DNA of 64,000 bases from Methylocystis echinoides (lineage in GTDB: Bacteria > Pseudomonadota > Alphaproteobacteria > Rhizobiales > Beijerinckiaceae), in contig NZ_CP156084.1 of NCBI RefSeq assembly GCF_040687965.1, forward strand, positions 2,852,501 to 2,916,500, given 5' to 3'. Positions 19,598 to 25,866 of this stretch are shown one piece after another. A program made the translations under genes and the position numbers. Under the pieces are notes generated by a model, which saw only the letters and a list, made by a program, of their open reading frames with translations, was not told the origin of the DNA and did no database searches. Position 1 is the first letter of the stretch. Every line of letters starts with the position of its first letter.

Positions 19598-19918
19598 ATG
19601 GCCTGGATCATTCTTCTGATCGGCAGCCTGTGCGAAGTCGGCTGGCTCGTCGGCATGAAATACGCCGAAGGCTTTACGCGGCTGTGGCCGACCGTGATCA
19701 TGCTGTTCTTCATGATCGCCAGCGTCGGCTGTCTCGGGATCGCGGTGAAATATATTCCGGCCGGAACGGCCTACGCCGTCTGGACGGGCGGCAGCGTCGC
19801 CGCCGTGACCGTCGTCGGCGTCTATCTTTTCAACGAGCCGGCCACCCCGATGCGTCTGGCGTCGATCGCCCTGATCGTCACCGGGATGATCGGCCTCAGA
19901 TTGAGCGGCGTGAATTAG
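19598..19918 (+). CDS. sugE: SMR family exporter of the SugE/Gdx type
   Basis: The 106-residue protein has the four helices of the small multidrug resistance family. Glu13 and Trp16 in SLCEVGWLVGMKYAEGF and the helix-three motif PAGTAYAVWTGGSVAAVTVVG match the Gdx subgroup, which exchanges guanidinium ion for protons as an antiparallel dimer; other SMR members export quaternary ammonium compounds. One gene alone implies a homodimer. It overlaps the neighbouring amidinotransferase gene tail-to-tail by four bases. Upstream I could not recognise a guanidine riboswitch. Confidence 0.9.
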   Translation: MAWIILLIGSLCEVGWLVGMKYAEGFTRLWPTVIMLFFMIASVGCLGIAVKYIPAGTAYAVWTGGSVAAVTVVGVYLFNEPATPMRLASIALIVTGMIGLRLSGVN

Positions 19919-21027
19919 AAATAGCGCTCAAGCGTCCCCCGGCGGCGCACGTCCAGAGTCGCGCAATGGAAGGCGCCGCCGAAGGCGGCGTAATGCAGGA
20001 AGGGGACCGGGATCGGCTCGAAGCCCCATTTCTCCACCTGCCGCATCATCTTGGTGTGATGCGGGTCGACGATCATGCGTTTCTCGTCGACCATCAGAAT
20101 GTTCATGCTCAGCCATTTGCCGCACATGGAGGTGATCTTGAGGATGCGGTCCTCGATCGGGTCTGGCTCCGGCGCGACGAGAATGTCCCACTTTTTCAAG
20201 ATGTCGGGCAGTTCGTCCGGATCGATGTATTCCGGATTGATCAGGATTTTGCCCGGGCCCAGCGGCAGGATGGTCGTGTCGATATGCATGGGGTTGGGGC
20301 AGCGGCTCTTGATCTCGTGAATGCGATAGCCGTCGCCGAGATGGCGCCGCAGCCAGTCGACGCCCATGGCGTTGGTCACATTCGAGCGGGTGACGAAAAT
20401 ATCCCGACCGCAGCGGAAGAAGTCGGCCGCGTCGAAGACCGGCTCGAACTCGGTCAGGATGTAGCGAATCGGCTCGCCCTTTTCGGGCAGCTTGAAATTC
20501 GGGTCGAAAAGCTCGTCGGTCAGTTGCGGCTTGGGGGCGGAAGTCCAGCGCGCGCCACGGCGAAAATACTCCTTCAGAATCGGCCGATAAGAGTGGGTCT
20601 CGAAATAGCGGCAGGGCCAGGCCATCGGCGTTTCGAGAATTTCGTCGCCGATCACCAGCATCGAATCGCGCGGGCAGGAATTGCAAAAGCCGCGCGACGA
20701 CCAGTAAGGGGTCGAAAATTTCGCCTTGTGATTGAAGGGCTCCGGCCGGGTGACCTTCACCCCCAGTGATTCGAGAACCTTGATGAAATTGTCGAGCTCT
20801 TCCTGGGCCGGCTCGATCATGAACTTGGGAAAACGAAAGCCCGCGGCCAGCGCCTGCGCGCGCGCCGCCATGCCGGGAATATTGCAGGTCACGACGGGAT
20901 GGTCGGAGGGGATCGTCGAGCCTTCGAGCCGGCCCACGATGATTTCCTCGAGTGGGTCCCACTCATTGTGAGAGTTGACGGGACATTCGGCCGTGACGGA
21001 AGCAGGCAATGGCGCGTAGACATTCAT
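19915..21027 (-). CDS. Amidinotransferase of the glycine/arginine amidinotransferase family
   Basis: These enzymes move the amidino group of arginine to an amine acceptor (glycine in the creatine pathway, other amines in natural-product pathways) through a Cys-linked intermediate. The 370-residue protein has the triad Asp202 (FDAADFFRCGRD), His248 (NPMHIDTT) and Cys355 (GGAFHCATLDVRRRG), spaced as in animal AGAT. The acceptor cannot be inferred; the loop near ARW and the Leu in place of Cys after the catalytic cysteine differ from animal AGAT. No pathway genes adjoin it except the guanidinium-type exporter. Confidence 0.92.
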   Translation of the reverse strand: MNVYAPLPASVTAECPVNSHNEWDPLEEIIVGRLEGSTIPSDHPVVTCNIPGMAARAQALAAGFRFPKFMIEPAQEELDNFIKVLESLGVKVTRPEPFNHKAKFSTPYWSSRGFCNSCPRDSMLVIGDEILETPMAWPCRYFETHSYRPILKEYFRRGARWTSAPKPQLTDELFDPNFKLPEKGEPIRYILTEFEPVFDAADFFRCGRDIFVTRSNVTNAMGVDWLRRHLGDGYRIHEIKSRCPNPMHIDTTILPLGPGKILINPEYIDPDELPDILKKWDILVAPEPDPIEDRILKITSMCGKWLSMNILMVDEKRMIVDPHHTKMMRQVEKWGFEPIPVPFLHYAAFGGAFHCATLDVRRRGTLERYF

Positions 21028-21121: not shown

Positions 21122-21151
21122 TTGCAATTGCCGCGGCTTTCCCTCTATATG
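21122..21151 (+). promoter_or_regulatory. Probable promoter of rpmI-rplT
   Basis: TTGCAA at 21122-21127 and TATATG at 21146-21151 are separated by 18 bases, a fair match to a housekeeping promoter. Transcription would begin near 21158, just before the folded leader. Confidence 0.5.
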
Positions 21152-21161
21152 CGGCGCTTCT

Positions 21162-21241
21162 GAACCGCCCGGCCAGTGATGGGCTGCCGTGGCGGTTCTT
21201 TTCGCTCGCGCGAAAAGCGCCCGCAAGGTCCATCAGAGGCC
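21162..21241 (+). promoter_or_regulatory. Structured leader of rpmI-rplT, possible attenuator
   Basis: GAACCGCC (21162-21169) pairs with GGCGGTTC (21191-21198), extended by CGGC/GCCG, and is followed by TTTT: a terminator-like hairpin with no upstream gene to terminate. Its bases 21171-21182 (GGCCAGTGATGG) can instead pair with 21230-21241 (CCATCAGAGGCC), ten pairs around a tandem A-G/G-A mismatch. That alternative encloses a perfect eight-base hairpin CTTTTCGC/GCGAAAAG (21198-21217), which hides the T-run. The two states exclude each other. Ribosomal protein L20 represses its own operon in other bacteria, so L20 is the natural candidate ligand. Confidence 0.55.
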
Positions 21242-21285
21242 AGGGCGCGTCAAAAACAACGGGGCCAGCGGCCCAGGAGAGCAAA

Positions 21286-21486
21286 ATGCCCAAGCTGAAG
21301 ACGAAATCCGGCGCCAAGAAGCGCTTCAAGATCACCGGAACCGGGAAAGTGGTCTATGCCCACCGGGGCAAGCGCCACGGCATGATCAAGCGCACGAACA
21401 AGCAGATCCGAAATCTGCGCGGGACGAATGTTCTGTTCAAGACGGACGGCGACAACGTCAAGAAATATTTCCTGCCGAACGGCTGA
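21286..21486 (+). CDS. rpmI: 50S ribosomal protein bL35
   Basis: The 66-residue basic protein begins [20 protein letters not shown] and contains the conserved [19 protein letters not shown], typical of bL35, which binds 23S rRNA in the large subunit. GGAGAGC precedes the start, and a small hairpin GGGCC-AGC-GGCCC lies just upstream of that ribosome site. It is cotranscribed with rplT 40 bases downstream. infC, which often leads this operon, is absent. Confidence 0.98.
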
Positions 21487-21526: not shown

Positions 21527-21892
21527 ATGGCTCGCGTGAAACGGGGCGTTACGTCCCACGCCAAGCACAAAAAGACGCTGAAGGCCGCCAAGGGCTTTTA
21601 TGGCCGCCGCAAGAATACGATTCGCACCGCCAAGGCCGCAGTCGACCGCGCGATGCAATACGCCACGCGCGATCGCAAGGCCAAGAAGCGCACCTTCCGC
21701 GCTCTGTGGATCCAGCGCCTCAACGCCGCCGTGCGCGAGCACGGCCTGACCTATTCGCGCTTCATCGACGGCCTCGCCAAGGCGGGCGTCGGCGTCGACC
21801 GCAAGGTTCTGTCCCAGCTTGCTATCGAGCAGCCGGAGGCCTTTGCGGCGATCGTCGCGCAGGCCAAGGCGGCCTTGCCGGCGGCTGCGTAA
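21527..21892 (+). CDS. rplT: 50S ribosomal protein bL20
   Basis: bL20 is an early assembly protein of the large ribosomal subunit and a translational repressor of its own operon in several bacteria. The 121-residue protein shows the basic N-terminal helix [28 protein letters not shown], and the globular RNA-binding C-terminal domain with [25 protein letters not shown] lies upstream of the start and a terminator follows. Confidence 0.98.
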
Positions 21893-21918
21893 CACGCTGA
21901 AACAAATAGATTTTTGAA

Positions 21919-21950
21919 AGCGTCCGCCGAGTCCCGGCGGGCGCTTTTTT
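21919..21950 (+). terminator. Intrinsic terminator of rpmI-rplT
   Basis: AGCGTCCGCCG pairs with CGGCGGGCGCT (one wobble) around a short loop and is followed directly by TTTTTT. Confidence 0.9.
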
Positions 21951-24484: not shown

Positions 24485-25042
24485 ATGACCTATCCTCCCG
24501 CGAAACGCGCGCTTCTTTCTCTGGCCTTGTGCTTCGTGGCCACCGCGGCGCTCGCCGCGCTGAAGCCGGGCGCCGACGCGCCCGACTTTTCCATCAAGGC
24601 GGCGCAAGGCGGGAAGGACTTCACTTTCTCGTTGCAGGAGGCGCTGAAGAAGGGGCCGGTGGTGCTTTATTTCTACCCCAAGTCCTTCACCAGCGTTTGC
24701 ACCGAGGAGGCGCATGAATTCGCGGAAACCATGGATCAATTTGCATCCATGAACGCGTCGGTCATCGGCGTGTCGGGGGACGGGATCGAGACGCAGCGCG
24801 AGTTTTCCACGAAGGAGTGCCGCGACAAATTTCCTGTCGGGGCGGACCCGCAGTTCAACGTCATCAAGGCCTATGACGCGTCGTTCAGCCTGCCGATCGC
24901 GGGGTCGGTGTTCGCGAACCGTATTTCTTACGTGATCTCGCCTGAGGGAAAGATCTTGTCGGCGGTGTCCGACTCTGGCGCGACGAAGCACATTGAAAGC
25001 GCGCTAGAGACCGTGAAGAAGTGGAAGGCTGGTCAAAAGTAG
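24485..25042 (+). CDS. Exported peroxiredoxin, Bcp/AhpC-TSA type
   Basis: Peroxiredoxins reduce hydrogen and organic peroxides with a reactive cysteine. The 185-residue protein has a signal-like hydrophobic stretch (8-25, LALCFVATAALA), so it is probably periplasmic, then the thioredoxin fold LYFYPKSFTSVCTEEAHEF with peroxidatic Cys72. The resolving cysteine of Bcp at +5 is replaced by His; Cys112 (TKECRDKF) is the only candidate. A start at 24464 is also open and would overlap the preceding gene by 17 bases. A repeat array follows the stop. Confidence 0.85.
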   Translation: MTYPPAKRALLSLALCFVATAALAALKPGADAPDFSIKAAQGGKDFTFSLQEALKKGPVVLYFYPKSFTSVCTEEAHEFAETMDQFASMNASVIGVSGDGIETQREFSTKECRDKFPVGADPQFNVIKAYDASFSLPIAGSVFANRISYVISPEGKILSAVSDSGATKHIESALETVKKWKAGQK

Positions 25043-25054
25043 CGCTCGCCAGAG

Positions 25055-25866
25055 CCCCCTCATCCTGAGGAGGCCCGAAGGGGCGTCTCGAAGGGTCGGC
25101 TGGCAAGAGGTGACTGACGGATTTCCTCGTCCTTCGAGACGCGCTTCGCGCGCCCTCAGGATGAGGAAATCCTCCTGCGCGGACCGCGCTCGCGGGCGTT
25201 CTTGCTTGGCGCCTCGCCCCGAGAGCCCCCTCATCCTGAGGAGGCCCGAAGGGCCGTCTCGAAGGGTCGGCTGGCGGGACGTGACTGACGGATTTCCTCG
25301 TCCTTCGAGACGCGCGCTTCGCGCGCCCTCAGGATGAGGAAATCCTCCTGCGCGGACTGCGCTCGCAGCGCGCTTGCTTGGAGCGACGCCCCGAGAGCCC
25401 CCTCATCCTGAGGAGGCCCGAAGGGCCGTCTCGAAGGATCGGCTGGCAAGACGTGACTGACGGACTTCATCGTCCTTCGAGACGCGCGCTTCGCGCGCCC
25501 TCAGGATGAGGAAATCCTCCTGCGCGGACTGCGCTCGCGGGCGTTCTTGCTTGGCGCCTCGCCCCGAGAGCCCCCTCATCCTGAGGAGGCCCGAAGGGCC
25601 GTCTCGAAGGATCGGCCGGCAAGACGTGACTGACAGATTTCCTCGTCCTTCGAGACGCGCGCTTCGCGCGCCCTCAGGATGAGGAAATCCTCCTGCCAGC
25701 GTTGGGACGGTTGTTCGCCTGCGCTTAGAGCCGTTGGCGGTCTCTTCCCCCTCATCCTGAGGAGGCCCGGAGGGCCGTCTCGAAGGATGGGCCGCTTGGG
25801 ACTATCGGATTTCCTCGTCCCTCGAGACGCGCGCTGCGCGCCCTCAGGATGAGGAGATCCTCCTGC
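25055..25866. repeat. Tandem array of ten palindromic elements in five inverted pairs
   Basis: Five units begin with CTCATCCTGAGGAGG at 25059, 25230, 25402, 25575 and 25751, a period of 171-176 bases. Each unit holds one reversed element (CTCATCCTGAGG ... CGTCTCGAAGG) and one forward element (CCTTCGAGACG ... CTCAGGATGAGG). Within elements the inner stem varies: GGCCC-TTC-GGGCC in the reversed copies and GCGCGC-TTC-GCGCGC in the forward ones. The unit spacers (GGACTGCGCTCGC-type) are also repeated. It fills the space between the peroxiredoxin gene and aspS; both point toward it, so it may also stop transcription. Confidence 0.9.

Follow-up and report, generated by a model that had tools for sequence, protein, structure and literature searches.

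The rpmI-rplT mRNA in the window (the whole stretch of DNA that was analysed, 64,000 nt) probably carries a translational operator of the L20 type at its 5' end. Comparison of leaders across the alphaproteobacteria makes it likely that this L20 operator is found throughout the class and that it uses two long-range contacts: the loop of a 5' hairpin would pair with the first two codons of rpmI, and a second helix would close the spacer between the Shine-Dalgarno (SD) sequence and the AUG. As a ribosomal protein leader with an L20-type translational operator, the element would belong to a known kind of regulator, with a structural form and a lineage that are new for it.

The window stems from a Methylocystis-like genome, Methylocystis being the nearest named relatives of its rplT. 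The locus comprises the following features.

19915-21027, minus strand: divergent ORF of 370 aa that has its upstream region in common with rpmI; we take its sequence to resemble an amidinotransferase
21122-21127 and 21145-21150, plus strand: promoter-like -35 (TTGCAA) and -10 (CTATAT) elements, read directly and by consensus match
21162-21169, plus strand: 5' strand of helix P1, GAACCGCC, from covariation in alignment A1 and within the match of covariance model R1
21170-21173, plus strand: 5' strand of helix P2, CGGC, from the covariation alignment
21180-21184, plus strand: apical loop with (U)GGGC, which pairs with 21288-21292 as the 5' side of the long-range pseudoknot
21186-21189, plus strand: 3' strand of P2, GCCG, followed by a bulged U at 21190, from the alignment
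21191-21198, plus strand: 3' strand of P1, GGCGGTTC, from the covariation alignment
21198-21217, plus strand: local hairpin P3, CTTTTCGC/GCGAAAAG, which holds the 5' strand of P4 (moderate evidence)
21204-21207, plus strand: 5' strand of the long-range helix P4, GCUC, from a scan of 221 leaders and correlated evolution
21275-21279, plus strand: SD sequence AGGAG of rpmI, read directly
21279-21282, plus strand: 3' strand of P4, GAGC, followed by N-AA, between SD and start codon, from the scan and the tree test
21286-21486, plus strand: rpmI, ribosomal protein L35 (ORF)
21288-21292, plus strand: 3' strand of the pseudoknot, consisting of the G of AUG, codon 2 CCC and an A, from the association of loop and codon 2
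21527-21892, plus strand: rplT, ribosomal protein L20, the candidate ligand (ORF, relatives found)
21916-21948, plus strand: strong terminator hairpin of the operon, 3' of rplT

The promoter-like pair described in the original prediction was present. By consensus matching, a -35/-10-like pair was found upstream of P1 in 193 of 245 representative leaders, and P1 usually started 9-13 nt past the -10 box, which places the hairpin essentially at the 5' end of the mRNA. A match to rpmI was found in 145 of the 149 genomes of the window's family. Elsewhere in the window, at 25004-25852, the list of ORFs contained near-identical peptides on both strands, for example MRKSSCADRARGRSCLAPRPESPLILRRPEGPSRR, which suggests that intergenic repeats are clustered there, in the space between two genes.

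Leaders were gathered at three levels (family, order and class), and about 300 alphaproteobacterial leaders were compared in total. The whole hairpin at 21162-21198 reads GAACCGCC-CGGC / GCCG-U-GGCGGTTC and is directly followed by TTTT at 21199-21202. Its folding energy was -26 kcal/mol, and equal stability was reached in none of 200 shuffles. In alignment A1, which comprises 58 leaders, 92.4% of the P1/P2 cells were paired and both sides had changed in 95 cells, compared to 27.6 ± 4.6 after shuffling. When the partners were slid by 1-3 columns, pairing fell to 35-60%. The P2 pair 10-30 was CG in 52 sequences and UA in 6, while the inner P2 pairs were invariant. In nearly all Rhizobiales and in many alphaproteobacteria outside this order a single hairpin was present directly 5' of rpmI; it consists of P1 and the CGGC/GCCG helix (P2) with its bulged U, and its apex reads GGGCU or GGGCAU. 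The covariance model R1 matched the window at 21161-21209 with 54.8 bits. Among the Rhizobiales it recovered 89 of 90 leaders, and in a diverse set from the class 46 of 89 (only about half of the diverse non-Rhizobiales leaders). In a genome search across the class, all 42 matches at E≤1e-5 were located just upstream of rpmI. Outside the Alphaproteobacteria R1 gave ten weak matches, none of them at rpmI, and it did not match 23S rRNA. The P1/P2 hairpin thus departs from chance so far that we regard it as virtually certain to be genuine. By comparative evidence the RNA is a ribosomal protein leader, that is, a covarying structured RNA that lies consistently 5' of ribosomal protein genes. Three leaders, L325, L402 (upstream of rpmI) and L171, had a long insertion in the apex of the hairpin with the flanking GGGCAUGCC and P1 kept, as if the loop tolerated an extra stem.

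The conserved partners of this hairpin region lie at the initiation site of rpmI. P4 is a helix of 4-5 bp between GCUY just past the hairpin and RAGC at positions -7 to -4 of the AUG. We scanned 221 leaders and found that 4-mers at +17 to +22 after the GCC of the hairpin were complementary to positions -7 to -4 in 145 of them, versus 102 after permutation (z 8.4); control stretches showed no comparable peak at -7 to -4. A possible additional pair 5' of P4 (X-Z) did not rise above the permutations. The fourth pair of P4, with counts reduced to families, was CG in 14, CA in 2, UG in 3 and UA in 13. Sign tests on independent pairs of the tree left too few supported pairs, and a model of dependent versus independent rates was used. 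On the protein tree with 145 tips dependent rates were clearly preferred (LR 46.8, p=1.7e-9); in this model C:A was left quickly and U:G was the intermediate. Compensation was also seen at the third pair, as GCAC/GUGC in L102 and L327 and as GCGU/ACGC in L365 and L394. The GC/GC pairs were kept in nearly all leaders, and in each of the 161 leaders in which both elements occur the P4 G-C pairs were followed by a single base and by AA ahead of the AUG. From the scan and the tree test we hold with high confidence that P4 is real.

Some leaders deviated from the common form of P4. Rhizobium leaders, for example L097, L103 and L107, had GCUU/UAGC, which gives three pairs (GCU/AGC) plus a possible shifted U-A, and their linker to the AUG, at about 150 nt, was unusually long. 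In a few leaders, including some from the window's family, GCGU followed the hairpin and AGGC preceded the AUG, with no P4 pairing.

The second long-range contact is between the apical loop and the beginning of the rpmI reading frame. The GGGCAU loop is perfectly complementary to AUGCCC, the first two codons of rpmI, and in relatives with this loop the pairing covers the whole AUG. The window has the shorter GGGCU type of loop with 4-5 pairs: UGGGC at 21180-21184 pairs with GCCCA at 21288-21292 (U21180-A21292 plus GGGC with GCCC), and the first two bases of the AUG stay unpaired. Among 229 leaders chosen by stem quality alone, a GGG loop was combined with a CCC codon in 216, and departures from GGG/CCC in genuine hairpins were mostly matched by the partner. 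To this set we added leaders with second codons other than CCC. The table of G as first loop base against codon 2 ending in C then read 237/2/0/21: a G-first loop went with a C-ending codon in 237 of 239 leaders, and with other codon ends the loop base was not G in all but two. Fisher's test gave 6e-29, a value that is not corrected for phylogeny. Compensated variants were GGACAU-AUGUCC (L102, L180), CGGCAU-AUGCCG (L162, L173, L198), AGGCAU-AUGCCU (L178, L185, L493, L494) and UGGCAU-AUGCCA (L472, L473, L491). In 15 further leaders without CCC at codon 2 the terminal loop pair was complementary in 6 and lost in 9. The inner GGCAU-AUGCC was constant across these searches and carries no evidential weight by itself. 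The CCC codon was kept in all four AT-rich relatives, in which CCC makes up 7% of the proline codons. A widespread operator whose pairing extends into the start codon would explain this near-universal CCC at codon 2, AT-rich genomes included, and if it is true, a synonymous proline codon is constrained throughout the class. Together, these associations make the pseudoknot between loop and start region very likely.

The helix of loop and start region (21180-21184 with 21288-21292) encloses P4 (21204-21207 with 21279-21282), so that both can form at once. Two nested long-range helices with the conserved AA between them would form one pseudoknot with P1/P2, and its 3' side, SD-RAGC-N-AA-AUGCCC, would hide the initiation site. 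Alone, each long-range helix is presumably too short to be stable. With 4-6 bp to bridge 70-100 nt, such helices require support, and a stabilizing protein is therefore likely. We propose that free L20 binds and stabilizes the pseudoknot, and that this would block loading of the 30S subunit on rpmI and, by coupling, on rplT. When 23S rRNA is plentiful, it would take up L20 and the site would open. The joint formation of both long-range helices and the lowered translation are what we infer from the conserved pairings.

L20, named as candidate ligand already in the original prediction, is still the best candidate and is a known regulator of rpmI-rplT elsewhere. It is the natural choice because it represses rpmI-rplT of E. 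coli via a long-range pseudoknot, and because L20 sites share G-C pairs and an AA. What the L20 sites described so far have in common is an AA dimer together with two G-C pairs in succession (PMC7247131). P4 has GC/GC in nearly all leaders and is followed by the AA in all 161 leaders with both elements, which may reflect this signature, although an AA beside the AUG has other possible causes. The 23S rRNA of the window's genome has GAAUCCC ... GGGGCUCAAGCC near the L20-binding helices, and this resembles GCUC ... GAGC-N-AA, a visual likeness that is suggestive only. By analogy to these systems we consider L20 quite probably the ligand. The pseudoknot operator could also be real and respond to L35, another factor or temperature, or have no ligand and act as a 5' stability element or a constant brake. 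L20 binding is a proposal here, L35 is encoded first, and the hairpin occupies the 5' end of the mRNA, a place where stability elements are located. On the other hand, the gene pair is under L20 control in E. coli and Bacillus via a comparable or rRNA-like site, and invariant G-C pairs followed by AA would suit the described L20 signature, which leaves a different ligand rather unlikely.

The leader had been predicted to be autoregulatory through mutually exclusive folds, and in such a transcription attenuator 21162-21198 with the T-run would terminate, while pairing of 21171-21182 with 21230-21241 would antiterminate. Both structures exist in the window: the hairpin is followed by TTTT, a terminator-like match lies at 21181-21198, and the duplex with its ten pairs around AG/GA is used in the minimum-energy fold of 21155-21300. 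The hairpin proved to be strongly covarying. The T-run was not conserved, since at least four T after the hairpin occurred in only 43 of 110 Rhizobiales representatives and in 4 of 67 others, and we rejected an intrinsic terminator at 21198-21202 for this reason. The antiterminator duplex was private to the window's genome; none of the other relatives that share the 12-nt 5' strand unchanged had it, and they scored at the level of shuffled sequences. Covariation in relatives was the check that came with the prediction, and since the first fold was conserved and the second was not, the attenuator model fails by its own standard. The lack of a conserved T-run and of the antiterminator in relatives makes attenuation unlikely, and the covariation of the hairpin and its position at the 5' end of the mRNA suit an operator better. 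We consider an attenuator very improbable. A ribosomal protein leader with alternative pairings stands, but not with the pairings that had been named, and control by terminator and antiterminator has no conserved basis. Conserved long-range partners in the SD-AUG spacer and at the start codon instead indicate translational control.

The predicted second perfect hairpin at 21198-21217 (P3) and a hairpin GGGCC-AGC-GGCCC next to the SD sequence were likewise present. Occlusion of the SD sequence by ordinary linker hairpins was at chance level over 170 leaders. Counterparts of P3 were found mainly in the window's family. At least three of the four GCUY bases were locally paired in 75% of 57 family leaders, and the mean folding z of the region was -1.07 in these leaders versus -0.34 elsewhere. 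In this family P3 and P4 draw on the same GCUC bases. P3 may compete with P4 and would then represent the open state of the operator, so that mutually exclusive folds may still exist.

We also considered a local pseudoknot, in which the apical GGGC(AU) pairs with GCUY or AUGC directly after P1 and not with the start codon. The raw counts were good, with GCUY in 80 of 109 U-loop leaders versus 23 after shuffling and AUGC in 22 of 55 AU-loops versus 9 of 109 U-loops, but we dropped this candidate as scarcely credible, because the AU-AU association was not significant on the tree (p 0.51; single positions 0.9 and 0.008), the P4 variants GCAC and GCGU would break the pairing, and GCUY is accounted for by P4 and GGG by codon 2.

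A search of Rfam, which had been suggested for the leader, gave no match. At the gathering score of Rfam 15 the whole window had no family match, and with permissive E-values the leader and twelve relatives had no relevant match and none to the Bacillus L20_leader. We found no earlier description of an alphaproteobacterial L20 leader in Rfam 15 or in the open literature (subscription papers and preprints were outside this scope). Regulation of rpmI-rplT by L20 is known from Gammaproteobacteria and Firmicutes and has been proposed for Deltaproteobacteria. An AA dimer and two G-C pairs also occur in the deltaproteobacterial L20 leader candidate (Eckert et al. 2020, PMC7247131), which comes from a different lineage and presumably has a different scaffold from the element in the window. 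The list of new ribosomal protein leaders in the same study contains no alphaproteobacterial L20 motif. The alphaproteobacterial rpsB motif and the L2 and L17 candidates are also class-wide leaders, some with pseudoknots, but belong to different genes and have different structures. The L20 leader of Bacillus (infC-rpmI-rplT) is, like the element in the window, a leader of an L35/L20 operon and has L20 as its ligand; there, attenuation occurs by an L20-stabilized terminator upstream of infC, whereas we found neither an Rfam match nor a conserved intrinsic terminator.

The operator of E. coli is the closest in its working. It acts on translation of the same gene pair by a long-range pseudoknot at the rpmI initiation region, which extends up to a point six bases 5' of the rpmI start (PMC6962249; PMC10931766). 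The comparative evidence for a long-range pseudoknot in the window is a likeness of working, from which we do not deduce homology. The E. coli operator has an irregular hairpin besides the pseudoknot, one strand of the pseudoknot lies in infC, and the operon is transcribed through infC. In the window the upstream position is taken by the divergent ORF, the operon has its own promoter-like site, and the element is 5'-terminal on its own mRNA and combines pairing of loop and start codon with P4. As both infC and the arrangement of E. coli are lacking, we do not class the element as a member of the E. coli type. If our reading is true, the logic of the long-range pseudoknot of E. coli L20 is reproduced by a different route, and another independent structural solution for one ribosomal protein would be useful for studies of rRNA mimicry and convergent evolution.
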